Shown here: piece by piece, positions 3,693 to 22,177 of the stretch
How the letters are laid out: each line of letters opens with the position of its first letter
Numbering within the stretch: the first letter of the stretch is position 1
Source: a virus
Length of the DNA: 22,887 nucleotides
Strand: one strand, 5' to 3'
IMG/VR virus record: IMGVR_UViG_3300031456_000020
Span: 1 to 22,887 of that record
Program-made: the position numbers and the translations under genes
The notes under the pieces: model-generated
The model's input: only the letters and a program-made list of their open reading frames with translations
Database searches by the model: none
Told to the model about the DNA's origin: nothing

Positions 3693-4252
3693 TCACCTCC
3701 CGCGTCGCGCGTTTATCTGTCTCGTCTGCTTCTCTTGCTCGGCTTGCTGCTTAGCGTTCTCTCTCTCGATCGCGTCCGCCTGTTCGGCGAAGTGATCGAA
3801 CTCCGTGATGTAGAACGTGTCCACTTGGCGCGGATCGAAGTGCCAGTGTGTGGCGAATCCGATCCGATATTTCGACACGCGGAGTTCGGGATCGTCCCAC
3901 GCGTCTAGTCGCTTCTCGGCGTCCCCGACTCGACGGCGGCGACGGCGACGGGATTTGGGTCCCCTCCCTCACCTCCCTCGTCCGGCGCGTCGACGATCGC
4001 GGGCACTTCGTCCGTGAGTGCTTCAATCTCGTTCAGGTTCCATTCGTCGAAGTCGTTCCACTGCACGGCCCGCCCGCTCCGGCGGTAGGCGAGATAGAGC
4101 ATCGCCACGATGGAGTCGGGATCGCCGTTCTGTAGCCCTTCACTGAACGGTTTCAGTCCGAACCCGGTGAACTTTTTGATCGTCCGCGCTTCGGCTACGG
4201 ACATCACCGTCTGATCGAACGAGATAATCTCTTCTCGGTACTTGAAACGCAC
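3693..4252 (-). CDS. Tail assembly chaperone, -1 frameshift fusion (gpGT-like)
   Basis: The same start as the short form (4252). Ribosomes that slip back one base at 3953-3959 read residues 1-100 of the short form and then 86 residues in the -1 frame (total 186): an Arg-rich linker, AEKRLDAWDDPELRVSKYRI, then TFYITEFDHFAEQADAIERE and a Gln/Lys/Arg-rich end. The -1 frame has no stop between the slip site and 3695. The second frame has no convincing independent start: a start at 3878 would drop the conserved DAWDDPEL piece and has no clear binding site. Its stop lies just above the tape measure ribosome binding site. Family knowledge: the ratio of the two forms is important for tail assembly. 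Confidence 0.85.
3905..4252 (-). CDS. Tail assembly chaperone, short form (gpG-like)
   Basis: A 115-residue protein from GTG 4252 with GGGAG upstream. Start MRFKYREEIISFDQTVMSVA, followed by SIVAMLYLAYRRSGRAVQWN then DFDEWNLNEIEALTD, is typical for the first tail assembly chaperone of siphoviruses, which binds the tape measure before tube assembly. The identification is supported by a slippery heptamer at 3953-3959 and by an overlapping downstream frame, exactly between tail tube and tape measure. Translation without frameshift ends at TAG 3905-3907. Confidence 0.88.
   Translation of the reverse strand: MRFKYREEIISFDQTVMSVAEARTIKKFTGFGLKPFSEGLQNGDPDSIVAMLYLAYRRSGRAVQWNDFDEWNLNEIEALTDEVPAIVDAPDEGGEGGDPNPVAVAAVESGTPRSD
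3953..3959 (-). other. -1 ribosomal frameshift slippery site C CCA AAT
   Basis: On the minus strand the sequence in the chaperone frame is GAC CCA AAT, i.e. the heptamer C CCA AAT of X XXY YYZ form (X=C, Y=A, Z=T). Slipping by -1 re-pairs the tRNAs on CCC AAA and continues with TCC CGT CGC. A weak CCCG/CGGG stem downstream may help. Phase was checked: the downstream frame is -1 relative to the short chaperone. Confidence 0.88.
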
Positions 4253-4264
4253 TGCTCGGCTCCC

Positions 4265-4756
4265 TTACGTAAGCGACCGTAGGAACTTCTCAACGGCGGC
4301 CGTGACGTTCTCCTGTACACGCGGCGTGTACTTCGAGATCGTGGGGGCGAACCACGGGTGGCCGCGCTGTGTGACCCATGTCGCCCCACCGAACACAGGG
4401 TGGCGGAACGACGCTTTCTCAAATGCCCACGGCAGTAGCTTCGAGTCGGCCGGCAACTTCGCCCGGTCGACGTAGACGCGCAACCCTTTCGACGACACCT
4501 GATAGGTGATCGCCTGTGCGAGTTCCGTTCGAAACGACTTGCCATCCTGCCGTCGAGCGTCTGAGCGATCTTCGAACGACATCACCTCCCGTTTCAGCGC
4601 TTGCACGATCTCTTCACCGGCACGACGCAACTCGCGTTTTAGTTCATCTGAGAGTCCACCGTTGCCGGCGTCGCGCAACTTCCCGGCGAGCGTGACAAAG
4701 TCGGAGATGCCTCCGACATTCATCCCCATCACTGGCCGAGCAGTGCGCTTAGGCAT
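4265..4756 (-). CDS. HK97 gp10-like neck/tail-joining protein
   Basis: A 163-residue protein from ATG 4756. Helices (SDELKRELRRAGEEIVQALK) are followed by FRHPVFGGATWVTQRGHPWF then APTISKYTPRVQENVTAAVE, the HPVFG...HPWF pattern of the HK97-gp10-like family. Members sit at the head-tail neck or act in tail completion. In most related phages this gene lies before the tail tube; here it lies after, between tube and chaperones. The ribosome binding site overlaps the end of the tube gene (GGAGACGG). Confidence 0.8.
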   Translation of the reverse strand: MPKRTARPVMGMNVGGISDFVTLAGKLRDAGNGGLSDELKRELRRAGEEIVQALKREVMSFEDRSDARRQDGKSFRTELAQAITYQVSSKGLRVYVDRAKLPADSKLLPWAFEKASFRHPVFGGATWVTQRGHPWFAPTISKYTPRVQENVTAAVEKFLRSLT

Positions 4757-4759
4757 CGA

Positions 4760-5794
4760 TCAGAACACCGTCTCCGGTGTGATCAGCATGACCTGTAGTA
4801 CCGGGTTCGTACCGTCGCTGTACGCTTCGAAGTCGGTCGACATCTCGACGAGATCCGGGCCGCCGACGTTCGGCGCAGCCGCTTTCATCTTGCACGCCGG
4901 CATGATGATCGAGACAGTCTCGTACTGGCCGCTCGTCGCGATCTCCGCTCCGACAAGATCCATCTGTACGGGGATCGTGAGGTTGTTCGCGAACGCGTCG
5001 TACAACTCGTCTTCGTCGAACTCCGCACCGAACGAACCGGTGATGGTCGGAGTCCCGTTCTCCAACTGCTCCGCCTTAAGACCGGCGTTACCGAGACCGA
5101 ACCGCTCCGTCGCCATCGGAACTTCGCCGCTGACACTCATCTCGCGGACGATCGTTGCGATCGCCACGCCGCCCGTGATCGAGGTGACGCCGCTCGTGGT
5201 CTCCACGTCGCCGCCCAGTTTCAGCGTGGCCTGCGAGAAGTCGAACACGCCGGTACCCGCGAGGTACGACGGGACGACGAGCCCGGCTGAGGTGAGCTCG
5301 TCCTTCCCGTCCATGGTCAGCGTCAACTGCGGGATTTCCTGGTCCCGGACGCTGAACTCCCACCCGCCCACCTTGCAGCCGGTGTACGTGAAGGGCTTGA
5401 CCAGACCGGAGCCGGGCTCCGGCCGGCCAACCTGCACGGTGAGCCCGAGCCCGCGATAGTCGCCGGGCACGTGTGCCTGCCGGTACGCCACGGTCGACGC
5501 GATCTGCACCGGCGCGGACAGCGCGGACGCAAGCGCGTGCTTCCACAGGAGACCCATGCCCTTTGTGGAGTGCTCCACCGCGATGTCGCCGGACACGGTG
5601 CGTCGGGACTGACGGACGCGCGCCTCACGCTTGTACTTGACACCGGACCGCAGCGCGGTCGGTTCGAGCCAAGACGGCTCCATCTTCAATGACTCGGAGA
5701 TGAACTCGTACGCTCGCGCGGGAACGATGGGTGTTCCCCATACGCTCTCCGGCCCTAGGGCCAATTGCGCGTCGAGACCGGAACCGGTCGCCAT
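4760..5794 (-). CDS. Major tail tube protein
   Basis: A 344-residue protein from ATG 5794 with a strong GAGGAGG site. It matches the tail tube family of long-tailed actinophages: MATGSGLDAQLALGPESVWG then TPIVPARAYEFISESLKM at the N-terminus, the KPFTYTGCKVGGWEFSVRD turn in the middle and GQYETVSIIMPACKMKAAAP near the end. The protein polymerises into the hollow tube around the tape measure. Position immediately before the gp10-like gene and the frameshifted chaperone pair supports the call. Only three bases separate it from the next gene. Confidence 0.88.
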   Translation of the reverse strand: MATGSGLDAQLALGPESVWGTPIVPARAYEFISESLKMEPSWLEPTALRSGVKYKREARVRQSRRTVSGDIAVEHSTKGMGLLWKHALASALSAPVQIASTVAYRQAHVPGDYRGLGLTVQVGRPEPGSGLVKPFTYTGCKVGGWEFSVRDQEIPQLTLTMDGKDELTSAGLVVPSYLAGTGVFDFSQATLKLGGDVETTSGVTSITGGVAIATIVREMSVSGEVPMATERFGLGNAGLKAEQLENGTPTITGSFGAEFDEDELYDAFANNLTIPVQMDLVGAEIATSGQYETVSIIMPACKMKAAAPNVGGPDLVEMSTDFEAYSDGTNPVLQVMLITPETVF

Positions 5795-5796
5795 GG

Positions 5797-6069
5797 TCAG
5801 TCCTCCTCCGTGTCGGTCGTACTTGCCGGACGCCGCCGCGTGCTACGGGCAGGAGAGCCCTGCACCGCCCATACCGACGAAGGCCAGACGCGCGCGTTCG
5901 TGCCGTCGCCGATGAGGAAGAACCCATCGTCGTCGGCGGTGTCGGCGTTCTCGATCTCGCCCGGGATCTCGACGGTATCACCGTCCTTCACGTGGAACGC
6001 GCCGGCTTCGCCGGACGTGGCGTACAACGTGACGTCGCTGCCCGTGTTATTGATCAGTGTTACGCTCAT
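5797..6069 (-). CDS. Small hypothetical protein between terminator and tail tube
   Basis: I chose ATG 6069 (MSVTLINNTGSDVTLYATSG, 90 residues) because GAGGGAAGG precedes it at proper spacing; a GTG at 6084 would put the start inside the previous gene's stop. The first ~70 residues are beta-rich and acidic (HVKDGDTVEIPGEIENADTA, FFLIGDGTNARVWPSSVWAV); the last 20 are Arg/Pro/Thr-rich and probably flexible. Comparable small proteins precede the tail tube gene in other actinophages with no known role. Confidence 0.72.
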   Translation of the reverse strand: MSVTLINNTGSDVTLYATSGEAGAFHVKDGDTVEIPGEIENADTADDDGFFLIGDGTNARVWPSSVWAVQGSPARSTRRRPASTTDTEED

Positions 6070-6080
6070 CTGTCCTTCCC

Positions 6081-6578
6081 TCACATTCGCGTTCGGACGT
6101 GCACGTTGAACGACAGTCGCGGTTGTACGTCTGCTGATTCCATGAGCGGCATGTACGCACCGAAGTTGCGAATATCCGCAGTCATGTACGGAGTCGTTGG
6201 CGGTCCGAGCCCCAACGACGGATTAGCGTGAATCGAGTTGGCCATGAGGGTGAACATCCGGTATAGCCGATCGAAGCACCCGGCAACCCCATCGGCGTCC
6301 GTCTGCCCGGACCGGTTCATGATGCAGCACAATACGTCGAACTCTTCGTCACGTGCTTTCTGCCCGATCGCGCCCCACACCTGCGTGTGCCGGACACACT
6401 CGAAGTCGCCGAGTGGATCCCCGTCGTACCCGATGAACACCGCGTCATCCGGGTCGCCCGACACGAGCGGCCCTAGGTAGACGTCCACCGCGCCGTCGGA
6501 GTCCGGCGGGTACTCCACTTCGAGCGCCGTGCGAAAGGTGTCGCGGAGACGGGGGAGCACGATCCCTGCGCGGCTCAT
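6081..6578 (-). CDS. Tail terminator / head-tail joining protein
   Basis: A 165-residue protein. ATG 6578 (MSRAGIVLPRLRDTFRTALE) overlaps the adaptor stop as ATGA; longer readings upstream are antisense-like. The pattern VDVYLGPLVSGDPDDAVFIG then CCIMNRSGQTDADGVAG, with a basic C-terminus ending LSFNVHVRTRM, fits the tail terminator family of actinophages, which caps the tail tube and joins it to the head. Position between adaptor and tail tube agrees. A head-tail stopper role is the main alternative, as no separate stopper is obvious. Confidence 0.72.
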   Translation of the reverse strand: MSRAGIVLPRLRDTFRTALEVEYPPDSDGAVDVYLGPLVSGDPDDAVFIGYDGDPLGDFECVRHTQVWGAIGQKARDEEFDVLCCIMNRSGQTDADGVAGCFDRLYRMFTLMANSIHANPSLGLGPPTTPYMTADIRNFGAYMPLMESADVQPRLSFNVHVRTRM

Positions 6579-7405
6579 CCGACCAACGGTCCGGCTCGGC
6601 CGAGCAGATCCTTCGCCCGGTTCGGAATGGAGTACGTCGTCACGCCCGGCGTGTCGGCCGTTGCGCCGCCCGCGCGGGGCCGCTCGGCGCTTCCGCCGCG
6701 AGGCAACCACAGATGCTGAACGATGATCTCTGCCGCCTCTTGGAAGTGGTCCGGGATCACGACGTACCCGGCGATGATGGTGACGCGGATGTGTCCGATG
6801 AACGGGGCCCCGTATGAGCGCAGGATCCCGTGCTCGTCGACGTCGAGCAGTTCGGAGGCCCACGGGCCCGACGGGTTCGGGCCGAGCCCTTCGACCGACG
6901 TGACGGCGATGATCGGTCGGTGCAGGATCGTCAGCGACCGGCGAGCGCGGCGCACGTTGAAGGTGATCGCCCGCTCCCGCCGAACGATCGTTTCCTTCCG
7001 CTCACCCTCGCATGCGAACGTCGCCGAGCGGATCAGTCCGCGCAACTCGTCGTCATTCTTGTAGTCCGTCGCCGGGATCTTCAACAGCCGTTTAACCCGG
7101 CCGAGCGACACGATCCCGGCCGCCTGCGGGGGGATGACGTCGAACGAGCCCGATACTGCGAGCGTAGGCGTGACCGTGCGCCACACATACGTGTACCGAC
7201 CGGGAAGCGTCGGCAGATAGTCGAACCCGTAGAACCCCGCCTCCCCGGGTGGGTTACCGATCTGCGGATCCTCCACCACCAGATCAGGCCGGGTGATCGT
7301 AAGCGTCACATCGATCGCATTGATCGCCACGCCCTCTTCGTCCCGGACGACGATCCCCATAGGGAACAGTTCGCCGACTTCGAGCGACGCGTTCGCCTGC
7401 GTCAT
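6575..7405 (-). CDS. Head-tail adaptor (HK97 gp6-like) with N-terminal Ig-like domain
   Basis: A 276-residue protein whose ATG (7405) overlaps the giant gene's stop by four bases. Residues ~100-276 resemble the helical connector (gp6-like) family: LGRVKRLLKIPATDYKNDDE, LRGLIRSATFACEGE, then HFQEAAEIIVQHLWLPRG and a C-terminal SIPNRAKDLLG. It would bind under the portal as the first connector ring. Residues 1-95 are a separate beta-rich segment (VTLTITRPDLVVEDPQIG ... LPGRYTYVWRTVTPTLAVSG), of the kind seen in Ig-like or carbohydrate-binding add-on domains. The add-on is unusual relative to the ~100-180 residues of simple adaptors. Confidence 0.82.
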   Translation of the reverse strand: MTQANASLEVGELFPMGIVVRDEEGVAINAIDVTLTITRPDLVVEDPQIGNPPGEAGFYGFDYLPTLPGRYTYVWRTVTPTLAVSGSFDVIPPQAAGIVSLGRVKRLLKIPATDYKNDDELRGLIRSATFACEGERKETIVRRERAITFNVRRARRSLTILHRPIIAVTSVEGLGPNPSGPWASELLDVDEHGILRSYGAPFIGHIRVTIIAGYVVIPDHFQEAAEIIVQHLWLPRGGSAERPRAGGATADTPGVTTYSIPNRAKDLLGRAGPLVG

Positions 7406-10400
7406 CGACCCTCCCCGTTTTCTACGATCGAGCCGGTAGACCTAAGCCATTCGATCAACGCGGCCCGGACAGTCTCCCCCATGGGGCCGTGTACACGCCA
7501 CGTCTCCGACAGCGTGGCACCCCCGGGCATAGACTCGTGCGCCGACTCGTGTACACGCCACGTCTCCGACAGCGTGGCACCCCCGGGCACAAACTCTTGC
7601 GCCGACCCGCGCATAGCGGGCACCCTGACCAGCGCATCCGCGACCGCGATCATCGTTGCGACGTGGATCGCGAACGGCGACACCGCAACCCCGGTCCCGA
7701 GTGCGGCCACCGCAGCGGCAGCTACGTCCGCCGCTGCGTCCCGGGCTCGGCCGGCGATGACAGCGAGCCCATCGACCGACGAGCCCGCCGTGATGGCGAG
7801 CGTCGACACCGTGAGATCGGGCATCCACACCGTCACTCCGACGCCGGCCGGATCCGGGCTCGGCTGCGCCACCGCGAGCGCAGTCACCTCCGGCGTCTCA
7901 CCGTCGACAGAGCCCGTCGCCGCACCCACATCGGACGGGGTGACCGCAGCGGCCGAGCCGTCCGCGGTCACCGTCGCTCCCGCCGGGTTCGGCGTGCTCG
8001 TGCCTGTCACGCCGGGCGCGTACACGCCGCCTTCGACCGACAGTTCCGCCGTCTCCGGCAGCGCTTTCGGCGAGATCCGCAGGTTCGCCGGGTTCGTGCT
8101 GATCGGTGTCTCGATCGCGGCCGGCTCGACGTCGCGCGAGCCCGTGTAGAACAGGCTCGGCGTCAAGCCGGTCACGGTCACGCTCGCCGACCCGGCGGCC
8201 GTGGTCGCCGAGCCGCTCGCGGTCTCCCCGTCGACGGTGAGCCCGCTCCCATCCGATGTGGGCGCCACGCTCGGCGCGGCCGGGGCTCCGGTCACCGTGC
8301 CGGCCGCCGTGCCCGCGGATGGCGCCACAGCGGGCGACGGAGCCTGCCCGGCGGTCGAGGTCTCGGCAGGGTCCGGGGCCACGGACGCGGCACCCACGGC
8401 CGTGCCGGTGCCATCCTGTGCGGTATGCGTGGTGACCGCCGGAGCGACCGGCGTCGCCCCCACGCTGGCATGTGCGTCGGGCGGGTCACCCGGCGTCGCG
8501 TTCATGTCGACTGTCGCCGGGACGCCGGACACGGTGGCACCGACACCGGGAGCGGGAGCGGGAGCCGTTCCGCCCACCGTCCCGGTGTCGGGCCCGACGG
8601 CGACTCCTGCGGCCGGGTCGCCCGCCACAGCCGCGCCTACCGCCGAGATCGGGAGGGCTTGCGTCGTCGACTCGACGGAGATCGGTTGTGCGGATACCGA
8701 CAGATCGGCCTGATCGGCAGTCGGGCGCTGCGACAGACCGGCGATCGCGGGCACAGCGTCGAGCGACAGGAGCACCGGCACCACGTTCGGCGTCACCGAC
8801 TGGTCGGGCGCACGAGCGTCCGGCGCGAGCAACGCCGGGGCCGCGTCGACGGTGTTGAGCCGCTCCGTGTCGGTGTCGAGACCGGCCACGGCGAGCCCGG
8901 CAGTTTCGGAGGTGGCTCCCTGCCCACCGCGCGCATCGGCGCTCACAGACACGTCGAGCGGTGCCGTCTCGGCGGGCGCTTGCGCGGTGTCCTGTCGCTG
9001 CGCCACCGCGTCGGCTCCGTCGAGCGCGACCAGCGCGACCGGTGTTGTGGTTGTGGCGTCGGTGGTGACGGTCGACGTCGTGGGGCTCGCGACGACCGTG
9101 ACGTCCGCCTGATCGGGTGTGGGCGCCACGGACGGCGCGGCGTCGACGGCTTCCGCGAGGATCTCGGCATTGTCCGGTTGCGCGTACGACTGATTCGCTC
9201 CGGCTCCCACGGCCGGTCCGCCCTCGATCAGTACCGGGATGTCGTCGACGTTCACGGCGATCGCCGCCGATCCGTCGACGCCGACCGGCGCGGCGTCTGC
9301 CTGCGTGGCGACCGGTGCGACCGCCGGCTGTGCATCCTGCGTAGCGATCGACAGATCTGCTTGCGCGGCGCCCGGGTTCGAGGTGCGCGTGATGTCCGCA
9401 TCCTGCGCGGGCGCGGCGAGCGCGGCGACGTCCACTCCGGCCGGTGAGATGCCGGGGGATGGCGAGCCGCCGTCGATGACCGTGCCGGCTTCGGTGGTGC
9501 CACCGGGCGCGATCGCCCCGGAGGGATCGACGGGCGCAACGGAGCCGAGCGCGGTGTCACCGGTGGGCGCGACCGCGCTCGTGGTGTCCTGCGTGACGAT
9601 GCCGGCGAGCGCGGTGTCAGCGGTGGGGCTCTGCGCAGTGTCGGCGTCCGCGCCGGCCAGGGTGAGCAATGCCGGGTCCGTGGTGCCGGCGACAGCGCTC
9701 GTGGTGTCCTGCGCGGCCGGCGAGAGGGTGGCGGCGTCGGGGGTGGCGCTCTCGCTCGTCGACGGGTCCGGGGTCGGGGCCGTGTACACGCCTCCGGCCG
9801 TATCGGGCGTGGGTCCCACTGACCCCTGAATGTCGAGCGCGGCGGCCGTGGCGTCTGCTTGGGCCGCATCTCGCGCCACGCTGGCCGAGATGTCGGCGGG
9901 CTCCCCGTCCATGGTGGGGACGGCGGTGTCCGCAGGGATGGCGATCGCCACGGCGGCGTCGAGCCCGGCGTACGAGCCGGTCCCGGTGACCGGTGCGGCT
10001 TCGGTGGCGAGCGTGTGTGTCGTGACAAGTCCGTACTGCCGTACTTGTGCGTACTCGGTTGAGCTACCGGCGCTAGCCGTGTCGAACTGCGCGTAGGCGC
10101 CCGACTTGAAGTACCACGACGCGGATCCGGTCGTGACGAGTTGCCCGCTCACGGAGTAGGCGTCGTTATAGTAGATGTCGACGGCGCCTGCGCTGGACAC
10201 ACGCGCCTTGACTTTGAACCATGTTCCCTGCACGTAGTTCTCTTCGAACCGGATCGCGCTTGTTCCGTTGATCCGTACGAGTAGCTTCGTCGCGCCGCTG
10301 ATCAACTGTGTACGAACCGAGATGCGATCGTTCGACCCGTTGTGCAACTGCATGACCACAACTTCGGGGTCCGCGGCCGGCACATGCACGATACTCGTCC

Positions 10401-12276
10401 ACACCTCGAATTCGTGCGTGCCCGTCATCGCGTCGAACGCCGTTTGCGTCGTGCCGTCCGATTCCATCTCGCGGAGTTCCGTACGGCCCGTCGTCGCCCC
10501 ACTCGTCGGCTGCGCATCCGCCCGAATGCGGTATTCCACAACCGGGCCCGCAGTGCCATCCGCCACCGTCAGGAAGTTCGCGATCTGCAACCCGGCATCG
10601 ATATCCGCCATCGTGTACTCCGACGCCACCCCGGATCCGTCGATACACGTTTGCAGCTTGTACTTGTTCGACCGAGCCGACCCGATATCGAGCACCACGG
10701 CCGGCGTCGGCAAGTCCACAGCGGACGCCGTGGCATCCTGCGCGACGACCGTCGTCGCTGTCTGCGTGATCGCGGGCGCGAGCCCTGCGGATGCGTCGAG
10801 CCCAGCGAGCGTGGTGTCAGCCTGCCCGGCGAGCGTGGTCGTCGTAACCGACGCATCCGCCGCGGGCCCGGTGATCGGAGCCTGAGCAGGGCTCGGCCCC
10901 ACCGACACCACGGCATCGGAGTCGGGCGACGCCATGAGCAGCGCCACCGCGGCTTCCTGCGACGAGACGCCGATCTGTGCACCTTGCGCGGTGACCGTGT
11001 ACGCGACGTTGCCGGCGTTGACGTCAGTGTTCGGCGGCGTCTCCGAGAGGATCAACCACTCATAGAGCCATGCCGACGAATCGGGGTCCGTCCAGTCGAG
11101 CACCACCGACCCGCCCGACACGGATGCCGCGGTCTCCGCGGTGAGCCCCCGCGTGGTGGGCAGGTAGTACTGCATCGCCTTCGACGGACCGTAGGCGACG
11201 TTCGTGATTGCGGCCGTCGACTGGTCGTCCGAGTCCCACACGGTGACGCATGCTTGGGTGCCGTCGGATGCGAACACCCCATATGTCGTCATGCCATTAT
11301 TTGCCCCGGAGGTCACGTCCGTGTTCGCGACGGTCGATCGCTGTCCGAGGAACACTGCCGCCTTCGCCACGCCGGATGACGGTGTCAGCGTCTGCGTTCC
11401 CGACGCTGGCACCGCATCTTGTCCCACCGTTACTGTGGCGCCTGCGGCCAGTTTGAGCGCGAGATACGCAAACGGCATGGCCGCTGTCTGCGTCGTCCAC
11501 GTGACGCGGAATCCGTCGGTCGGCCATCCCGCAGCGGCTGCCAACGCACCGTTATTCTGGATCGTGCCCGATACGCCGCCGTAGAACAGCGTCGCGTTTC
11601 GGATCGACGTACGAACGTCCTGCGTCGCCGCCCCGTCGGTTCCTTGCTGATACACCATTCGGCCACCGGCGGCAGCCTTCGTAGCGAACCCGGTACCGTA
11701 TGGCGACTGGCCGCCGAGCGTGGTCACGGTAGTCAGGTCGCCGCCGTGCATGGCAAACAGGCAATCGGGTTGCCCGAACCCCGAGACAACGGTGACGTCT
11801 TGTGTCGCGGGAGTGGTCTGCGCGGTGAACAATCCGGCCATGGCGTCGGTGATGTCCGAGCCGCCGAGCACGAGAACCGTGAGTTTCACGCTCGCCGTGG
11901 TGTGTAGGTTCGACCAGTTCAGGACGAACTGCGACGTAGCGCCCGTCTGCATGGAGACGAGCGACACCACCATGTCTTGCGTGTTGTCCATACCGTTGGT
12001 CAACTTCGCAACGGCGTCGTTCGAGGTACGACCGAACGTGTCCTGTGCAGCGCCGAGATCTTCCGACTGCTGTTCGGTCCACATCTGCTGAACTACTGCG
12101 CCGCGATACGTGCCGTACCCCATCGACATCACCAGATGCGATTGGATACCGGCCGCCGCGCGCGGCTGCGCTAGAACGATGATCGCCTTCGGGTCGAAGT
12201 TCGACGCGAGGCTATACGTCTGATTACCGGTGGCGCCCGGCTGCGTGCACGTGACGACCGTTGCATTGAGCGCCAC
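7402..12276 (-). CDS. Giant virion-associated protein with polysaccharide lyase family 7 domain and repeat array
   Basis: A 1624-residue single frame from GTG 12276 (GGGAGG upstream). Residues ~18-412 hold three related beta-rich domains. Residues ~455-528 are an Ala/Thr/Asp-rich repeat block. Residues ~530-755 are a PL7 (alginate-lyase-like) domain: RTELREM (Arg602), VMQLH (Gln643, His645) and WYFKSGAYAQ (Tyr728). The repeats resume from ~763 to ~1555 with almost no Lys or aromatic residues, e.g. TQDTTSAVAPTGDTALG. A 20-residue tandem duplication (MPGGATLSETWRVH) is near the C-terminus. PL7 enzymes cleave uronate-containing polysaccharides by beta-elimination, so a depolymerase on a long flexible stalk is likely; the substrate is unknown. 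The gene lies between head and adaptor genes and overlaps the adaptor start as ATGA. Attachment to head or tail cannot be told from sequence. Confidence 0.9.
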   Translation of the reverse strand: MALNATVVTCTQPGATGNQTYSLASNFDPKAIIVLAQPRAAAGIQSHLVMSMGYGTYRGAVVQQMWTEQQSEDLGAAQDTFGRTSNDAVAKLTNGMDNTQDMVVSLVSMQTGATSQFVLNWSNLHTTASVKLTVLVLGGSDITDAMAGLFTAQTTPATQDVTVVSGFGQPDCLFAMHGGDLTTVTTLGGQSPYGTGFATKAAAGGRMVYQQGTDGAATQDVRTSIRNATLFYGGVSGTIQNNGALAAAAGWPTDGFRVTWTTQTAAMPFAYLALKLAAGATVTVGQDAVPASGTQTLTPSSGVAKAAVFLGQRSTVANTDVTSGANNGMTTYGVFASDGTQACVTVWDSDDQSTAAITNVAYGPSKAMQYYLPTTRGLTAETAASVSGGSVVLDWTDPDSSAWLYEWLILSETPPNTDVNAGNVAYTVTAQGAQIGVSSQEAAVALLMASPDSDAVVSVGPSPAQAPITGPAADASVTTTTLAGQADTTLAGLDASAGLAPAITQTATTVVAQDATASAVDLPTPAVVLDIGSARSNKYKLQTCIDGSGVASEYTMADIDAGLQIANFLTVADGTAGPVVEYRIRADAQPTSGATTGRTELREMESDGTTQTAFDAMTGTHEFEVWTSIVHVPAADPEVVVMQLHNGSNDRISVRTQLISGATKLLVRINGTSAIRFEENYVQGTWFKVKARVSSAGAVDIYYNDAYSVSGQLVTTGSASWYFKSGAYAQFDTASAGSSTEYAQVRQYGLVTTHTLATEAAPVTGTGSYAGLDAAVAIAIPADTAVPTMDGEPADISASVARDAAQADATAAALDIQGSVGPTPDTAGGVYTAPTPDPSTSESATPDAATLSPAAQDTTSAVAGTTDPALLTLAGADADTAQSPTADTALAGIVTQDTTSAVAPTGDTALGSVAPVDPSGAIAPGGTTEAGTVIDGGSPSPGISPAGVDVAALAAPAQDADITRTSNPGAAQADLSIATQDAQPAVAPVATQADAAPVGVDGSAAIAVNVDDIPVLIEGGPAVGAGANQSYAQPDNAEILAEAVDAAPSVAPTPDQADVTVVASPTTSTVTTDATTTTPVALVALDGADAVAQRQDTAQAPAETAPLDVSVSADARGGQGATSETAGLAVAGLDTDTERLNTVDAAPALLAPDARAPDQSVTPNVVPVLLSLDAVPAIAGLSQRPTADQADLSVSAQPISVESTTQALPISAVGAAVAGDPAAGVAVGPDTGTVGGTAPAPAPGVGATVSGVPATVDMNATPGDPPDAHASVGATPVAPAVTTHTAQDGTGTAVGAASVAPDPAETSTAGQAPSPAVAPSAGTAAGTVTGAPAAPSVAPTSDGSGLTVDGETASGSATTAAGSASVTVTGLTPSLFYTGSRDVEPAAIETPISTNPANLRISPKALPETAELSVEGGVYAPGVTGTSTPNPAGATVTADGSAAAVTPSDVGAATGSVDGETPEVTALAVAQPSPDPAGVGVTVWMPDLTVSTLAITAGSSVDGLAVIAGRARDAAADVAAAAVAALGTGVAVSPFAIHVATMIAVADALVRVPAMRGSAQEFVPGGATLSETWRVHESAHESMPGGATLSETWRVHGPMGETVRAALIEWLRSTGSIVENGEGR
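7488..7607 (-). repeat. Two tandem 60-bp direct repeats
   Basis: 7488-7547 and 7548-7607 are near-identical 60-bp units with the first ~40 bases identical; each begins with the palindrome CGTGTACACG (plus strand). They encode a 20-residue duplication, [FV/SM]PGGATLSETWRVH..., close to the C-terminus of the giant protein. The period is a multiple of three, so the frame is kept. High identity suggests a recent duplication compared with the degenerate repeats upstream. Confidence 0.92.
8138..8161. repeat. Degenerate copy of the extended palindrome
   Basis: GAGCCCGTGTA at the left and GGCTCGGC at the right, with the centre altered (GTAGAACA in place of GTACACG). It lies in the giant gene and encodes FYTGS, parallel to VYTGS at 22200. 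Likely a decayed relative of the same family. Confidence 0.5.
9781..9790. repeat. CGTGTACACG palindrome
   Basis: Exact 10-bp site in the repeat array of the giant gene (encodes GVYTAP). Outer bases are not paired. Confidence 0.8.
10012..10689 (-). other. PL7 alginate-lyase-like catalytic domain (region of the giant protein)
   Basis: Residues ~530-755 of the giant protein. Three signature blocks of PL7/alginate lyase 2 are in order: R-T-E-L-R-E-M (598-604), Q-L-H (643-645; the family has QIH or QVH) and Y-F-K-S-G-A-Y-A-Q (722-730; the family has YFKAGxYxQ). The four catalytic positions Arg602, Gln643, His645 and Tyr728 are all kept. Between them runs LLVRINGTSAIRFEENY then GTWFKVKARVSSAGAVDIYY, typical of a jelly-roll lyase. 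The length (~225 residues) is that of a complete domain. Repeat sequence flanks it on both sides. Confidence 0.88.
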
Positions 12277-12299
12277 CGGTCAACCTCCCTTCCGCTACG

Positions 12300-12710: not shown

Positions 12711-13181
12711 TCACAAGGTTGCACGCCATATTCCGAGAACATTCCAGATGATCGTGAACGTACCATTCACCACGCTGTTCGGACCGCCGAAGTAGTTATA
12801 ACACACGCCCTGATTCGCGACGGGTGTTGCAACAACGTTCTCGTACACGAGACATCCGGTCGCGTTCGTAAGGTCCGCCGCCGATCCCGAGACAACGTCG
12901 TTCGCATCCCAAAAGACGACACCGGCCGTGCCGACGTTCAGGGACAGGCCCGCAAGAGCCACACCACCGGCCGCCCACTGACCGGACTCGGAGCACTCCT
13001 GCGCACTCGCCCACTGGCCCACGTTGTACGCGGAGTTCGCGGCCGAGACGTTCTGATCCGGGGTGATCGTGTTGTTGTACAGAGCGGCCTTGAAGGAACC
13101 GGAGTCGAGATCCAGCGCCGTAGTGTTACCCGCGATATCCGCGAGGAACTGGCGGAACATCTTCGATGCAGACCAGGCCAT
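12711..13181 (-). CDS. Phage structural protein, function unknown
   Basis: A 156-residue protein from ATG 13181, one base after the previous stop, with GAGGAA upstream. It starts MAWSASKMFRQFLADIAGNT followed by TALDLDSGSFKAALYNNTIT, a start I recognise from actinophage and prophage head- or tail-associated proteins of unassigned function. The rest is beta-rich and Gly/Ala/Asn-rich (LAGLSLNVGTAGVVFWDAND, FTIIWNVLGIWRATL). Similar proteins probably form virion appendages or decoration. The close position to the giant lyase protein could mean that they act together; this is inference from neighbourhood only. Confidence 0.75.
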   Translation of the reverse strand: MAWSASKMFRQFLADIAGNTTALDLDSGSFKAALYNNTITPDQNVSAANSAYNVGQWASAQECSESGQWAAGGVALAGLSLNVGTAGVVFWDANDVVSGSAADLTNATGCLVYENVVATPVANQGVCYNYFGGPNSVVNGTFTIIWNVLGIWRATL

Positions 13182-15426: not shown

Positions 15427-16143
15427 CTACCTCACTTCGAGTTGATCGGCCGGAAGGTTCGCGTACCGTTCGATGATCTCCAACGCGTACGCGAGTTTGT
15501 CCGCGGCGCGCTGACCGGCCGGCTGTGCCGACGACCAGAGTTCGAGATTAGAGATCGAGTTGTCAGAGCGGTCGCCGTTCCGATGATGGACCGTCTCATC
15601 CGGGAGTAGCTCACGCCCGATGTGGCGTTCCATCTCGACGCGGTGTTGGAGGATGACCGTCCCGCCACGACTCGGCCAGATGATGTATCCGTCCGCGTTC
15701 GGGCGCCACGTCGCTTCGCCGTTGCGAGCCTTTCGACGGGCCGCCTCTCCGGGCTCGCCGTGTCGCTTGATGCGTTCGAGATGCATCGCACAGTAGCCCT
15801 TGGCCTGATTCGGCAAGTCGCATCCGACGACGACGCAGGGCGGTTGCGGTGGCCGGACGTACCCGCGGGCACGAGCGTCCCGCTTGCCGTAGCGAGCCCT
15901 GCACTTCGGCGAGCAGAACCGGCGTACCGACCCATGCGGGCGAGCCCGAAACGTCTGGCCGCACGGGCACTCGTGATCCACATCCGCGTACTCGACACGG
16001 TGAAGGGGCAGACCCTTCCTGTCGATCGAGTGGGCCGGGCCGGGCTCGCCGAACTTGCGCACGCGGATGTAGTGCATGTTGCACCACCCCTTGGCGTACT
16101 CGACCCGACCGCACTCATCGACAACGCACGTCCTCTTCTCCAT
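15427..16143 (-). CDS. HNH endonuclease with three Cys-rich zinc-binding modules
   Basis: A 238-residue free-standing endonuclease starting at ATG 16143. An HNH_3-like domain occupies about residues 150-205: GYIIWPSRGGTVILQHRVEM, then ETVHHRNGDRSDNSISNLELW with His186, His187, Asn189, Asn195 and Asn199. In front lie three metal-binding-like modules: C6-C11-C21-H24, C59-C61-C77-C81, and C103-C108-C118-H121. The first and third are clear duplicates (CVVDECGRVEYAKGWCNMHY against CVVVGCDLPNQAKGYCAMHL, both ending KFGEPG or RHGEPG). The gene sits alone between capsid and small head genes, a common place for homing-type HNH genes. It may be a selfish insertion; HNH proteins can also act in packaging, but those normally lie beside terminase. 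Confidence 0.92.
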   Translation of the reverse strand: MEKRTCVVDECGRVEYAKGWCNMHYIRVRKFGEPGPAHSIDRKGLPLHRVEYADVDHECPCGQTFRARPHGSVRRFCSPKCRARYGKRDARARGYVRPPQPPCVVVGCDLPNQAKGYCAMHLERIKRHGEPGEAARRKARNGEATWRPNADGYIIWPSRGGTVILQHRVEMERHIGRELLPDETVHHRNGDRSDNSISNLELWSSAQPAGQRAADKLAYALEIIERYANLPADQLEVR

Positions 16144-16174: not shown

Positions 16175-17854
16175 TCAGGTCACGTCGAGAAGGCGGAAAG
16201 CTGCATCATTCACGGAGTCACTTCCGTGACGGACGTACGCCATCCACCCACGCTGCCCACTCGGCCGGTTGTTCGCCGTGTGGAAGAGATGCGGAATGAA
16301 CTCAACCGTCATTCCGATACGGTCCGCGATAACGAAGTTCGAGAAGTCACCGTGGATAAGGACGTTGTTCGTCTGCGTCGCGTTGATGACGCCGTCCATG
16401 TCCTCCGCTTCGAGCGCCGGCCGGCCGAGCAGCGACGGCTGACGGCCCTCCGACAGCGTGCCCCACAGTTCGTTACCCACCTGGAACTGCCGCACGATGT
16501 TGTACACCAGGTTGTTTCCGAGCCACGCCGTACCCGGCTGATTGCGGTACCGCGCTGGCAGCGAACCCTGCAACTTGAAGATGTCCGCGAGCGCCATCAC
16601 GTCCGTTGTGGTGCTCGGCACCACGGACGCCGTACCCGTCAGGGCGGTCACGATGCCCGTTGGCATGGCCACACCCGAACCGACAGCGAACGCGTTCGCT
16701 TCGAGCACGTCCCGGCCGAACGCGAGCAGCGAGCCCACCTCCGCCGCAACGTTCGATGCATCCTGCATGGCTTCGATCGAGATCGGGACGAACCCGTTCG
16801 CCTTGTAGATCGGGATCGCCGGGCCGGCGAATGTCGGCGTGTCGTCCGAGACCTCCGACGCCTCCGCGTCGTACGACCACGAGACCGCACCGGCGCTGAC
16901 ACCGTTCCACACGTCACCGGTGGCGACCACCTGCCGGGCCACCTGCCGGATCTGGTTCACCGAACCGTTCGCCGTGATGATGACGGTCGGGTCCAACTGG
17001 AGAGGGACCAAGTAACCACCGGCGGCGTCGGTCAGCGACATCGCTCGCGTGGTGCGGGCGGTGTGCCGGACGTGCGCGACCGCGCGCCGCTCGTCGTCGG
17101 TCAACTCCGCCTGCGAGCCGTCCATCCGGGCCATCTTCGACCACGCACGGAAGTACGCCGGGGCGGACAGCGCCAGCATGCACTGCGAGAGGTTCGCGTC
17201 CTGGTCGTCCCACCGCTCGACGATCCCGGTCGCTGCCTGCCGGATGGCGTCGGTGACGCCGACCATCTGCTCACATGCCGAGAGCGCGCGGGAGCGGAAT
17301 TCCTGCGCGACGTGCTCCGGCTCGCGGCCCATGGTCCGCATGTCGTCGGTGGCCCACGGGTTGCGGAACCGGTGCTCCTGAATGGAGTCCGGTTCGAGGA
17401 TGCCGTCACGGTCGAAGCCGTTCGAGTTGTCGTGGCGTTCGCCACCGGCACCGCGCTCCGTACGCAGGTAGCCGGCCGCGTTCAGCGTCGACGACACGTT
17501 CGAGACGCGTGCCAGGGTCGCCTGTCGCTCCAACCGGAGCCGGTGCGCATCCACGGTCTCGAACTCGGTAGCCAACTCGCGGAAGTATCGATCGTCCTCT
17601 TCGGACGGATTGTCGAGTTCCGCGATCTGGCCCATCTGCGCGCGGATGTCCTGCAACCGGTTGATGCAACCGGAGTGTGTGAGTGTTGGTGCGCCACCCT
17701 GGCCGGAGTCGGTGCCGGTCCCGCGCTGCGGGGTGCCGGTTCCCTCTCCGTCGCCGCCTGCGATCGGGTAGATCGGTGCACCATCGGCACGGAAGCCGAG
17801 CACCGTGCCGCGCGCGTTCGTCAGACCGGTCGCCCGGCCGTTGTCGGTCGCCAC
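16175..17854 (-). CDS. Major capsid protein, HK97 fold with N-terminal scaffold-like region
   Basis: I chose GTG 17854 (559 residues) because GAAGGGAG lies just upstream and directly follows the protease stop; the frame is open further up but overlaps the protease gene. Residues 63-118 (from CINRLQDIRAQMGQI through RLERQATLARV) are charged and helical, as in a delta or scaffold domain. The HK97-like body starts near residue 271 with AMSLTDAAGGYLVPLQLDP, followed by NGFVPISIEAMQDA and GSGVAMPTGIV. It ends with GWMAYVRHGSDSVNDAAFRLLDVT. The family forms the icosahedral shell. The large region before residue 271 would be removed by the neighbouring protease; the cleavage site cannot be fixed from sequence alone. 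Confidence 0.93.
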   Translation of the reverse strand: MATDNGRATGLTNARGTVLGFRADGAPIYPIAGGDGEGTGTPQRGTGTDSGQGGAPTLTHSGCINRLQDIRAQMGQIAELDNPSEEDDRYFRELATEFETVDAHRLRLERQATLARVSNVSSTLNAAGYLRTERGAGGERHDNSNGFDRDGILEPDSIQEHRFRNPWATDDMRTMGREPEHVAQEFRSRALSACEQMVGVTDAIRQAATGIVERWDDQDANLSQCMLALSAPAYFRAWSKMARMDGSQAELTDDERRAVAHVRHTARTTRAMSLTDAAGGYLVPLQLDPTVIITANGSVNQIRQVARQVVATGDVWNGVSAGAVSWSYDAEASEVSDDTPTFAGPAIPIYKANGFVPISIEAMQDASNVAAEVGSLLAFGRDVLEANAFAVGSGVAMPTGIVTALTGTASVVPSTTTDVMALADIFKLQGSLPARYRNQPGTAWLGNNLVYNIVRQFQVGNELWGTLSEGRQPSLLGRPALEAEDMDGVINATQTNNVLIHGDFSNFVIADRIGMTVEFIPHLFHTANNRPSGQRGWMAYVRHGSDSVNDAAFRLLDVT

Positions 17855-17879: not shown

Positions 17880-19085
17880 TCATTCGTCCGAAGGCGGAAG
17901 GGTGAGCGCTCGATCGAGATAGGTCCGGTAGTCGGACCGCAGCGTATTGCGCCGGTCCGTCGGGTTGAGCGGACGCGTCTCGTCGGGGGTGTCACCACTC
18001 CGCGAGTGCGTCCCGGCGGTTGCATCGGTGGTCCCCGGCTCGCGCTGCGAGTGGTTCCCGGCCGTTGTCCCCGTGGTCTGCGGCTCACCTTCGGTGCTAC
18101 GGGACCGGCCCGTGTGCACGGCACCATTATGCACAGAGTCACCGTCTGGCGGAACCACCGGGGCCGTGTCGCCGCCCGCGTCTGCGACCCGAATTCCGAG
18201 CGCGGCGACGACTTCGAGTCGACGCGCTTTGCCCGCTTCGCAGTCCATGAGCGCGACGAGATCGGCGAGCGCGCCGCGATCCTCACGCAATGCGCCGAGA
18301 TCGATGACGAGCCGTCCACCGTCCGCGGAGCGTGCACCGACTTCGGTCTCTTGATACGCCGGCCACACGACGGGTCCGACTTCCGGTACCCGAACTTCGA
18401 TCAGTTCGCGCGTGATGGGTCCGCGGTCGCCCGCTCCGTAGTACAGCAACTCGAACAGTTCGTGATCATCCTTGATCACCTTGCCGTCGTTGTCTCGCCA
18501 CTCTTCCTTGACGACGGAGAACCGGAACGACATACCGTCTACGGCACCTTCGGCAATCGCCATACGGAACGGCTCAATCAGCCAATTGTCATACATGCGG
18601 CCGAGCACGTGTAGGCCGTGGTCGTCTTCCTCCACTGTCTCCCACCGGCCGAGCGGGAGCCCGCCGAGCAGCGGGTGATAGCCGTGATCAAACTGCATCT
18701 TCGGGGTGTTCTCGCGGATCGACTTACGGAACGCACCCTTACGGATCTTCTCGTTGAAGTGACCCTCCCACGAGTTGATCTCCGTATCGACGCCGAACAC
18801 CGCGCCGTACCCCTCGATCGTGCGGCCGTCCGACTCCGTCTCGTCCGTTCCATTGGTCTCGGGTGCCAGCGACATACGGAACGGCACCGTGCGGCACAGA
18901 CCCTCGCGCTGCACGTTCCCGGCCGCGACGTCGTTGACGTTCGACGACGATGCACCGGCGAAGCGCTCGGCCACGTTGAATCCGGCAGCGCGCATCCGCT
19001 CCGCCATTGAGGCGAGCGCGGTAGTGCGCTCCGCCCGTCGCGTGACATCCTTCATGATCGCTCGCCGTGCGGTAGTCGCCGTCAT
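17880..19085 (-). CDS. HK97-type prohead protease
   Basis: A 401-residue protein whose ATG (19085) overlaps the portal stop by four bases. Residues ~65-250 match the HK97 prohead protease family (peptidase S78/U35). TIEGYGAVFGVDTEINSWEG is followed by MQFDHGYHPLLGGLPLGRW with the candidate catalytic His134. AVDGMSFRFSVVKEEW carries the candidate nucleophile Ser186, and IEVRVPEVGPVVWPAY supplies a candidate third residue, Glu230. The enzyme removes the scaffold-like delta region of the capsid protein and then itself. The last ~120 residues are Ser/Thr/Gly-rich and low in complexity, unlike the compact family core. Position between portal and capsid is standard. No separate scaffold gene is visible, which fits a delta region in the capsid protein. 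Confidence 0.92.
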   Translation of the reverse strand: MTATTARRAIMKDVTRRAERTTALASMAERMRAAGFNVAERFAGASSSNVNDVAAGNVQREGLCRTVPFRMSLAPETNGTDETESDGRTIEGYGAVFGVDTEINSWEGHFNEKIRKGAFRKSIRENTPKMQFDHGYHPLLGGLPLGRWETVEEDDHGLHVLGRMYDNWLIEPFRMAIAEGAVDGMSFRFSVVKEEWRDNDGKVIKDDHELFELLYYGAGDRGPITRELIEVRVPEVGPVVWPAYQETEVGARSADGGRLVIDLGALREDRGALADLVALMDCEAGKARRLEVVAALGIRVADAGGDTAPVVPPDGDSVHNGAVHTGRSRSTEGEPQTTGTTAGNHSQREPGTTDATAGTHSRSGDTPDETRPLNPTDRRNTLRSDYRTYLDRALTLPPSDE

Positions 19086-22000
19086 GAGTGAACCCCGTTC
19101 GTCATCGGTATCGAGACCTCCGCAGCGACTGCGTAATCAACCCAATCGCGAGCGGTGTCGCTTCCCGTCCGCGCGACGGGGGCCGGCCGTGGCCCCGGTC
19201 GATCGTGCCCGCGAGCCTCACGCGCTCGTGCTGCGAAGTCCCGGGCGATGTACTCCAAGATCGCCGCGTCGTGCTGGTCGTACGACGGGCCGGCAACCGC
19301 CCGCGCGGCCATGGCGGGATCGTACGGAACGATCGCCGCCCGAGCCGTGTACACGGGCTCGGCCGAATTCGTGCCGTCCCCCGAGCCGGTCCCCGAGTCG
19401 TCCCCGGAGTCGTCCCCGGGCGCTGCGTCGTCCGCAGGCGCATCGTTGGCGGCCGGGGGCCCCGGCGGTGCCGGGGGAGGGGCGAGCAGCGGGGAGTCTG
19501 CCGGCAGCGCCGGGAGGTCAGCACCGGCACGGTTCAGCAGATCGCGCGCTTCCTCCACGGTGATGACCTTACCGATACCGAGATAGACCTTTTGGATCAT
19601 CTCCATGAGTAGCCGGATCTCGGCCGGCGTCTGCCCGTTCAGCCCGGACGCCGGGTCGGCAGCATTCGTTGCGTCCGCCTCTTTCTTCGCGTCCGCCACC
19701 GTGGCCGGTCCAGTCGTTCCGCCGCTGTCACTGGCCGGAGCCGCATCGCTCGATGCTGCGCCGGATTCGATCGCACCGTTCGCGCCGGGTGTCTGCAACT
19801 GCACGGACACCATGCCCGTGTGGATCAGTAGCGCCGGATCGCCCGCCTTGACAGCGAGGATCGCCGACTCGGGGGTGAACCCGGCCGTGATGTACGTATT
19901 GATCGTCGCCGCGTTGGTCTGCTCGATCCGCGCGGCCACCTCTCGATCCTCGCGGAGGAACGAGACGTCACGCGTGTCGTACCACAGTCGCGCGTCGCCG
20001 CCGGGCGGCCGGATGATCGTCTGTAGTGATGCCGCCGCGTTCGCCCACAGGGTCGCCATGGTGAGATCGGCGAACCGGCGCATCGCCTGTCCGTAGTTGC
20101 TGTACGTCGCCGACGACAGACCTTCGGACAGTCCGACGATGACGGCCGGCACACCCGCAGCCGCCGCAACGCGTGTCTCTCCGCGTCCCTGAACGCTGGC
20201 CATCTGCAACTGCTCGAAGTTCGAGCCGACCACTTTGACGTCAGCGCCACCGCCGAGATAGAGCGTCTTGTAGGCGTTCTCTGCGCCTACGTGCTCTTCG
20301 TCCATGATCGCCTTGAAACGTTCGAAATCCTCCGGGCTGATCGACTTGTCCAGCGCTACAGCGATGTTCGGCGTGTTGTGTGTCAACACGTAGTCGCTCG
20401 TGACGTACAGCGAGTCCGGCACATCGACGCGGATGCACTGCGCTTCCTCGCGCCGCACATACTCCACGCCGACGATGGAGCGCGACCGCTCGCCCCGATT
20501 GCCCGGCGGCGTGTACACGTTCGCCTTGCGCGACAGCGCGAACGGCACAATCGCCTCTGGCAGACGCTGCACGTGTACACGCCATTGACCGCGAGACGTC
20601 TCCGCGATCGTTGCCGTCCCGCCGAGCGAACGAGCCAACTCGCGCACGTTCTCCGCGAGCGCGCGCGACGTACTGATGAAGCGCACGAGATTCGGTTGAC
20701 GCCGATCCACCGATCCGTCGGTGTCGAGCAGTCCACGCAATAGCGCGAGCCGATCGGCGATCGACGCACGGAGGTACGCGGCCGGGACCCGCTTGTCCGG
20801 TCCGAGCGTGCCCCACACGTCGAGCCCTTCGAGCGCAGCGCGTAGCGGGTTCCCTGCCTTGCCGCCCGATCCTAGGTAGAACTCCGACCAGCCGCCCCGG
20901 TCACGCCGTGAGACCGTCACGCCGGCCGGCACGTGGGCCGCCAGTAGCGCGGCTGTGTCGTCGGCGTCGTCGGCCGCAGCGGCGAGCGTGGCCCCGCCGG
21001 GACCGGTCATGCACCCGTCGCCGAGTAGTGCCCCGAGTAGCCACGGGTCGACGGGCAACGGCTCGTCGCCTGCGAACTCGATCGGGTCGGCGAACGGTAC
21101 GGCCCACTTCGCGGCACCGCTCGCGTAGTGCGTCTGCTCCGCGATCTCCGCCGTCGTCATCAGCCGACCCACGCCGCGTTTGCGATCATAGAGCGACTGG
21201 ACTGCCCACACGTGATCTTCGGTGCACTCCACTTCCGAGCCGTCCGCGAACGACACGCGGTAGATGGACTGTTCGCCCTGCGGGAACACTCCGGTGACGC
21301 GGTGCGGCTTACCGTCGGAGCCGACCACTTCGGACCCGATGAGCATCGCGCCCATGGTCGACCATCCGCGCGGCGTGAGCACCGGTGCGGACAACGGCTG
21401 CGGTGCCGCGTTCTCGAAGAACCGTTGCTTATGCCGCTCCATCGTCTTATCGTTCGCGATCTCACGGATCGCAGCCGTCATCCACGACATGCCGCGATAC
21501 GATGCATGCGGGTCCGGTGTCGGCGCGAAGTGCGCAACCTCGCTCGTGCCGAACAATGCCACTTGCTCCGGCGGACACACCTCGATCCCACCGTGATGGT
21601 AGGTATAGCCCGCCTTCCGATAGCCGACGATACCGCCGTTCATCTCGATCGGCTCTAGCAGGATCTGCACCCACGTCGGATGTAGGCGATGCATCCACGG
21701 ACCGTTACGAATGTGATACGAGTTCCCCGCAAGATCGACGTCGAGCAGCATCCGCGACAGCAGATCCTGCGTCGACCCGGAAGGCCACGGCGTTTCGAGG
21801 GGGCCGAGCGAGGGAGTCCCGAACAGATCGGCCGGCCGGCCACCGCGGATCCGCTGATAGGTAAACCGAACGAGCGAGAACGCCGCCATGCGCACCGCCA
21901 TGATGGCGAACACGAGACCGCTCCCGCGATAGGCTTGTTCGCCGAGCGCAGCCATCGACTGCCCGACCCGTTCGGCCGGCTCTTTCTTCCACGTCTGCTC

Positions 22001-22177
22001 GAACGGGCCGCCCGACACTCCCCACTCGGAGAGATAGTCGGACATCATCGCCGCGTACTGATCGAGCGTGAATGCCTGGTCGCGGGCGCCCGCCTGCGGT
22101 ACGCCGAGCGGGTGGCCGGAGCGGACGGCAGCATCCGCGCGCCGAGCCCGGACCAAAGTCCGGCCGAGAGTCGGCAC
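19082..22177 (-). CDS. Portal protein interrupted by an intein (1031-residue precursor)
   Basis: The portal forms the dodecameric ring through which DNA enters the head and to which the connector attaches. The start is GTG 22177, preceded by GGGGAGGGG. Portal-like sequence is in residues 1-258 (e.g. DLAGNSYHIRNGPWMHRL) and from 602 on (TPNIAVALDKSISPEDFERF, then GLSSATYSNYGQAMRRF). Joining residue 258 to 602 gives FFENAATPN, the FF-N-ATPN stretch typical of HK97-type portals, so residues 259-601 are an insertion described as a separate intein feature. The spliced product would be 688 residues. That is longer than most portals because residues ~800-1031 form a Pro/Ala/Asp/Gly-rich extension. 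The stop overlaps the protease start as ATGA. Confidence 0.93.
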   Translation of the reverse strand: MPTLGRTLVRARRADAAVRSGHPLGVPQAGARDQAFTLDQYAAMMSDYLSEWGVSGGPFEQTWKKEPAERVGQSMAALGEQAYRGSGLVFAIMAVRMAAFSLVRFTYQRIRGGRPADLFGTPSLGPLETPWPSGSTQDLLSRMLLDVDLAGNSYHIRNGPWMHRLHPTWVQILLEPIEMNGGIVGYRKAGYTYHHGGIEVCPPEQVALFGTSEVAHFAPTPDPHASYRGMSWMTAAIREIANDKTMERHKQRFFENAAPQPLSAPVLTPRGWSTMGAMLIGSEVVGSDGKPHRVTGVFPQGEQSIYRVSFADGSEVECTEDHVWAVQSLYDRKRGVGRLMTTAEIAEQTHYASGAAKWAVPFADPIEFAGDEPLPVDPWLLGALLGDGCMTGPGGATLAAAADDADDTAALLAAHVPAGVTVSRRDRGGWSEFYLGSGGKAGNPLRAALEGLDVWGTLGPDKRVPAAYLRASIADRLALLRGLLDTDGSVDRRQPNLVRFISTSRALAENVRELARSLGGTATIAETSRGQWRVHVQRLPEAIVPFALSRKANVYTPPGNRGERSRSIVGVEYVRREEAQCIRVDVPDSLYVTSDYVLTHNTPNIAVALDKSISPEDFERFKAIMDEEHVGAENAYKTLYLGGGADVKVVGSNFEQLQMASVQGRGETRVAAAAGVPAVIVGLSEGLSSATYSNYGQAMRRFADLTMATLWANAAASLQTIIRPPGGDARLWYDTRDVSFLREDREVAARIEQTNAATINTYITAGFTPESAILAVKAGDPALLIHTGMVSVQLQTPGANGAIESGAASSDAAPASDSGGTTGPATVADAKKEADATNAADPASGLNGQTPAEIRLLMEMIQKVYLGIGKVITVEEARDLLNRAGADLPALPADSPLLAPPPAPPGPPAANDAPADDAAPGDDSGDDSGTGSGDGTNSAEPVYTARAAIVPYDPAMAARAVAGPSYDQHDAAILEYIARDFAARAREARGHDRPGPRPAPVARTGSDTARDWVDYAVAAEVSIPMTNGVHS
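19345..19356. repeat. 12-bp palindrome around CGTGTACACG
   Basis: CCGTGT/ACACGG in the portal C-terminal extension (EPVYTA). The outer arms (CCGAG- / -CTCGG) also match if one base is missing on the left, so it is an imperfect relative of the 20-bp site at 22200. Confidence 0.85.
20510..20519. repeat. CGTGTACACG palindrome in the intein
   Basis: Exact 10-bp site in the second half of the intein (encodes NVYTPPG), 62 bases from a second copy at 20572-20581. Confidence 0.8.
20572..20581. repeat. CGTGTACACG palindrome in the intein, second copy
   Basis: Exact 10-bp site in the intein, read in a different codon phase (WRVHV) from the neighbouring copy at 20510, which argues against a protein-level reason for the match. 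Confidence 0.8.

Follow-up and report, generated by a model that had tools for sequence, protein, structure and literature searches.

How does a phage of actinobacteria get through the polysaccharide around its host? Phage depolymerases are best known from phages of Gram-negative pathogens, and the polysaccharide crossed by actinobacterial phages is mostly unknown. The question is raised by an uncultured phage, IMG/VR virus record IMGVR_UViG_3300031456_000020, of which positions 1 to 22,887 (the whole stretch analyzed, 22,887 nucleotides, hereafter the window) encode on the minus strand P0001, a giant modular fibre-like protein of 1624 amino acids with a GTG start, delimited by open reading frame calling (7402..12276). 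An earlier sequence-only reading had proposed that this giant phage protein contains, at 10012-10689, a domain resembling PL7 alginate lyases with all its catalytic residues. The analysis described here makes it probable that P0001 is a structural component of the phage, most likely a virion appendage of fibre type, and that it carries a catalytically competent PL7 domain, flanked by an N-terminal region on one side and a long repetitive stalk on the other.

The PL7 (Alginate_lyase2) domain of P0001 comprises residues 530-755 (10012..10689, minus strand). Pfam profile PF08787 matched residues 537-754 with 66.6 bits (cut-off 29.7; E 3.8e-18) over profile positions 4-225 of 225, a full-length match above the curated cut-off that places the domain in the family. 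A phmmer search of PDB with the domain retrieved AlgAT5 (E 6e-22) and the Corynebacterium polyguluronate lyase (E 3e-18). The conserved regions described for PL7, RXEXR, QXH and YXKAGXYXQ (PMC8618178), are present as RTELR, QLH and YFKSGAYAQ, with one conservative Ala-to-Ser change. The blocks RTELREM (residues 598-604, window 10485-10465), QLH (from residue 643, 10350-10342) and YFKSGAYAQ (residues 722-730, 10113-10087) lie on the minus strand in this order within one open frame, as the sequence-only reading had stated, and the ordered triple did not recur in any of 20,000 shuffles of the domain. A chance occurrence of the motifs was ruled out by the shuffles, the profile match, the alignment and the structure matches.

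The fold and the active site were analyzed using an alignment of 37 rows, consisting of the window domain and 36 relatives from viral and bacterial contigs. The AlphaFold2 model built with these relatives had a mean predicted local distance difference test score (pLDDT) of 91.4 and a predicted template modelling score of 0.90. Its best structure match was 5zqi (AlgAT5; Z 29.0, root mean square deviation 1.9 Å, 209 residues), followed by 1uai (Z 27.7, 2.2 Å), A1-II' (Z about 26) and the PL7A beta-glucuronan lyase 7nde (Z 22.8), and then by a PL18 lyase, an ulvan lyase and heparin lyase I at Z 15-18. The modelled domain is a beta-jelly-roll that can be superposed on solved PL7 lyases; the lectin-like jelly roll that would have spoken against the proposed identity did not arise, the best matches all being PL7 lyases and lectin-type folds much weaker. 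A domain that is a lectin only was rejected on the profile match, the invariant residues, the PL7 structure matches and the shuffles.

Alignment to A1-II' placed all four catalytic residues at equivalent positions: Arg598, the first Arg of RTELRE (10483..10485), corresponds to Arg146, Gln643 of QLH (10348..10350) to Gln189, His645 of QLH (10342..10344) to His191 and Tyr728 of YFKSGAYAQ (10093..10095) to Tyr284, all read from the minus strand and invariant in 37 of 37 rows. The numbering offset is fixed because PDB entries of the H191N and Y284F mutants, in substrate and product complexes, name the mutated residues. The role of each of these residues is established PL7 enzymology. Both the proposed identity and the claim of a complete catalytic set are thus borne out, and the alignment and model suggest that the domain is probably catalytically competent, an active uronan lyase.

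The remainder of P0001 has a fibre-like layout. The N-terminal region (residues 1-436, 10969..12276) is joined to the PL7 domain by an Ala/Thr/Val-rich linker (residues 437-529, 10690..10968) which, on sequence inspection, resembles the distal stalk in type. This low-complexity stalk (residues 761-1500, 7777..9996) is rich in Ala, Thr, Pro, Val and Gly and carries a degenerate repeat of about 10/20 residues, seen in the autocorrelation of Asp, which is 0.25 at lag 10 and 0.18 at lag 20, values that none of 2000 shuffles reached. The C-terminal region (residues 1501-1624, 7405..7776) includes a duplicated 20-amino-acid unit, encoded by a 60-bp in-frame tandem repeat (7488-7606, minus strand) with two copies and 94% matches. 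Three tandem copies were suspected within the N-terminal region and found no support. By sequence reading, a ribosome-binding site, GGGAGG (12284..12289, minus strand), lies upstream of the GTG start, and no signal-peptide-like N-terminus was seen by eye.

P0001 is encoded among virion structural genes, between the capsid and connector genes and those for the head-tail adaptor, tail tube and tape measure, which confirms, for this giant protein, the location in a phage structural operon. The module runs along the minus strand from a portal gene with an intein through the maturation protease, HK97-type capsid, HNH endonuclease and small connector-type genes to P0001, the adaptor, the tail tube and the tape measure. 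The adaptor gene (phrog_442, 6575..7405, minus strand) is adjacent to P0001, whose stop overlaps the adaptor ATG in an ATGA sequence (7402-7405). Together with relatives fused to tail proteins, this gene position leads us to infer that P0001 would be a virion depolymerase.

Loci of relatives were compared with this region, the viral contigs being denoted by L numbers. Two contigs with a related capsid (L014 and L022) encode, directly before the adaptor, proteins of 455-507 amino acids with an N-terminal domain and degenerate repeats, lacking PL7, and L017 has a similar 508-amino-acid protein without PL7 in the same interval. No such gene is present in Gordonia phage Zirinka, a capsid relative (about 55%). 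In L028 and L124 an N-terminal domain, PL7 and a long repeat stalk are found in a single protein, and L031 encodes, shortly after the tape measure, a minor tail protein (phrog_1885, 1.7e-14) with PL7 fused to it. Small proteins of phrog_644 are encoded close to PL7 fibre genes in phages that otherwise differ, at 12711..13181 (minus strand, two genes before P0001) in the window and at 3882-4316, preceding the PL7 genes, in L026; the two gave no match in direct BLASTP and share the family by profile only, and a companion of fibre genes is possible. Because PL7-less proteins occupy the slot, the layout recurs, PL7 is fused to tail proteins and phrog_644 genes lie nearby, these comparisons suggest that the fibre slot is swappable and that a PL7 module has been inserted there.

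The relatives also carry further enzyme modules. In L026 one polypeptide (5340-9605) unites PL7 with a chondroitinase B domain of PL6 type (127 bits) and also gives a weak match to GH16, below cut-off; the adjoining gene (4327-5616) encodes a second PL7. The second PL7 protein of L034 (7137-9719) combines PL7 with a GH46 chitosanase (192 bits) and a bacterial Ig domain.

Related domains were sought by tblastn among 50,697 deposited phage records; the queries were the window domain, one relative from its clade and one bacterial PL7. No clear PL7 was found, but this empty search is not proof of absence, since a profile would be more sensitive than tblastn and records near the window may be left out. 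One weak match was a hypothetical protein of Pseudomonas phage Arace01 (E 0.04). The whole of P0001 had no relative in the same phages and no match in PHROGs or NCBIfam. A BFVD search returned an alginate lyase of a giant virus, after which all matches were weaker and to lectin-like folds. Related PL7 domains were found on IMG/VR viral contigs, with identities of 48-49% (L026 and L027), 39% (L034) and 33% (L028), and also on L124; the best bacterial PL7 matches had 28-37%. In ten tape-measure-related contigs no PL7 was seen, but the control match was absent everywhere, so that this too does not prove absence.

In the tree, the window domain grouped with L026 and L027 (100/97) in a viral core of six (99/94) and among nine phage-clade rows (91/84), the bacterial PL7s that were sampled falling outside this clade. 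For the middle letter of the QxH motif, the 82 bacterial domains sampled have I or V (79 QIH, 3 QVH, no QLH), and the window, L026 and L027 domains have L or M. This letter has been tied to polyM/polyG preference with several named exceptions (PMC8618178), and on account of these no specificity is predicted from QLH. The L026 and L027 domains differ with nonsynonymous and synonymous divergences (dN and dS) of 0.198 and 0.674 (dN/dS about 0.29), indicating purifying selection. Genomes were sampled from one phylum, that of a Micromonospora genome (396 genomes). Among them only ordinary PL7 was found, with scores up to 115 bits; the six core members of the phage clade score 280-414 bits. The window domain belongs to a phage-only PL7 branch, which sequenced phage isolates do not seem to have. 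As far as the search reached, such a clade on repeat-stalked fibres is new; PL7 and phage depolymerases were already known.

What would the enzyme do? We infer activity, presence on the virion, a uronate substrate and a role in adsorption. The virion fibre would display the PL7 domain on its repeat stalk, the lyase would thin an acidic exopolysaccharide around the host, and the phage would gain access to the cell through the thinned coat. On its way to the host the phage thus probably cleaves a coat of acidic sugars. As substrates, polymers of mannuronate/guluronate or glucuronan are the most likely. Because PL7 includes both alginate and beta-glucuronan lyases (7nde) and the clade has QLH or QMH, the specificity is not fixed by family. 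Several points weigh against this assignment. The exact P0001 protein is known in one copy only. Its putative anchoring N-terminal region had no relatives in tblastn of the phages, in a viral contig scan, in phmmer of the fetched loci or in PHROGs (E up to 5), and the single-sequence model of that region was unusable (pLDDT 34.6). The P0001 gene lies in the capsid-to-adaptor interval, whereas the genes of the L026, L027 and L031 proteins follow the tape measure.

The same observations bear on other explanations of the locus. An active, virion-borne PL7 could be aimed at a non-host polysaccharide, such as the alginate-type matrix of neighbouring bacteria or the algal or plant material that the host inhabits, and aid diffusion instead of receptor access. 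We know of no actinobacterial alginate, and the mixture of PL7 with PL6-type, GH46 chitosanase and weakly GH16-like modules in related phage proteins would suit a mixed matrix. On the other hand, phage depolymerases that have been studied act mainly on host capsule or exopolysaccharide (PMC5380687), and we regard a non-host target as unlikely. Still less probable is a catalytically silent PL7 fold that binds an acidic polysaccharide as receptor without cutting it. Many phage fibres do carry non-enzymatic jelly-roll domains, and such folds were the weaker viral BFVD matches. A lectin, however, would be free to lose the catalytic residues, so their retention in the window and throughout the alignment, viral copies included, argues against it, as does the purifying selection between L026 and L027.

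An auxiliary metabolic role, in which PL7 would feed the infected host with alginate products, has been suggested for PL7 genes carried by soil viruses of the Aral Sea (PMC9948696), and some viral PL7s are indeed short stand-alone enzymes (L029, L030 and L032). The PL7 of the window, in contrast, is internal to a 1624-amino-acid repeat protein in a structural operon, not a free-standing enzyme outside it, and shows no export signal by eye; its clade-mates are likewise found in large fibre-like or tail-type proteins. For P0001 this role is therefore highly improbable, and the fibre-borne lyase directed at the host coat is the reading that we retain. Extending it, we propose tentatively, as a possibility that is rather doubtful as a whole, that a phage-specific PL7 subfamily, with QLH or QMH and an extra strand-connecting insert, may have evolved on modular repeat-stalked actinobacteriophage fibres, where it would cut an undescribed actinobacterial surface uronan and spread as a swappable fibre cassette.

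Since an identifiable lyase has a defined chemistry, giving unsaturated uronate products that absorb at 235 nm, the coat crossed by the phage is directly assayable. The results also suggest that, of the PL7 genes on viral contigs interpreted as auxiliary metabolism, some may encode virion enzymes, and they add a divergent PL7 clade for specificity studies.

The neighbouring genes bear on the host. Matches to the tape measure, protease and capsid were led by phages of Gordonia, Streptomyces, Microbacterium, Mycobacterium and Rhodococcus, in agreement with the earlier suggestion of a probable actinobacterial phage; more distant relatives of the tape measure and capsid also occur in phages of Firmicutes. 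The conserved part of the HK97-type major capsid protein (16175..17653, minus strand) was recognized by PF05065 with 133.6 bits, and a related capsid is encoded in 7 of the 396 genomes (best 49%). As a single phylum was sampled with no control phylum, these sequence matches make an actinobacterial host only likely. A free-standing HNH endonuclease gene (15427-16143, minus strand) directly follows the capsid gene, and one is found at the same spot in L015 and L016. The portal gene (19082-22177, minus strand) is split by an intein that spans about residues 259-601 (roughly 340 residues) and contains a LAGLIDADG homing-endonuclease domain; the portal genes of relatives match both of its flanks and lack the intein itself. 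By eye, the adaptor seems to have an extra N-terminal Ig-like (BppU-like) domain ahead of its connector part, as does that of L014.

Among characterized enzymes, AlgAT5 (5zqi) and the Corynebacterium ALY-1 polyguluronate lyase (1uai) share family and fold with the window domain, and have the RxELRE, QxH and YxKxGxY blocks in common with it, but they are about 30% identical and are bacterial enzymes, not phage fibre parts. The window domain differs from bacterial PL7s in its QLH, in an insert, RTQLISGATKL, between strands, and in an NKYKLQ-type start where the bacterial domains have NWKLTLP. The Trichoderma PL7A beta-glucuronan lyase (7nde) has the PL7 fold in common with it, although it is fungal and 19% identical; its membership means that PL7 is not limited to alginate.

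Phage-borne alginate-degrading enzymes of Pseudomonas phage PT-6 and of an Azotobacter phage have long been described biochemically (PMC5380687). They resemble the proposed P0001 activity in being phage-associated and cleaving a uronate polymer by beta-elimination. Their hosts, in contrast, are Gram-negative alginate producers; the table of PMC5380687 lists the accession of the enzymes as ND. Further counterparts are the proteins of L026, L027, L034, L028 and L124, which are large and belong to the same clade (99/94), L028 and L124 having also the same layout. They differ from P0001 in PL7 sequence (33-49% identity), in their N-terminal domains and in gene position; L026 has PL6 in addition, and the second PL7 protein of L034 carries GH46 as well.
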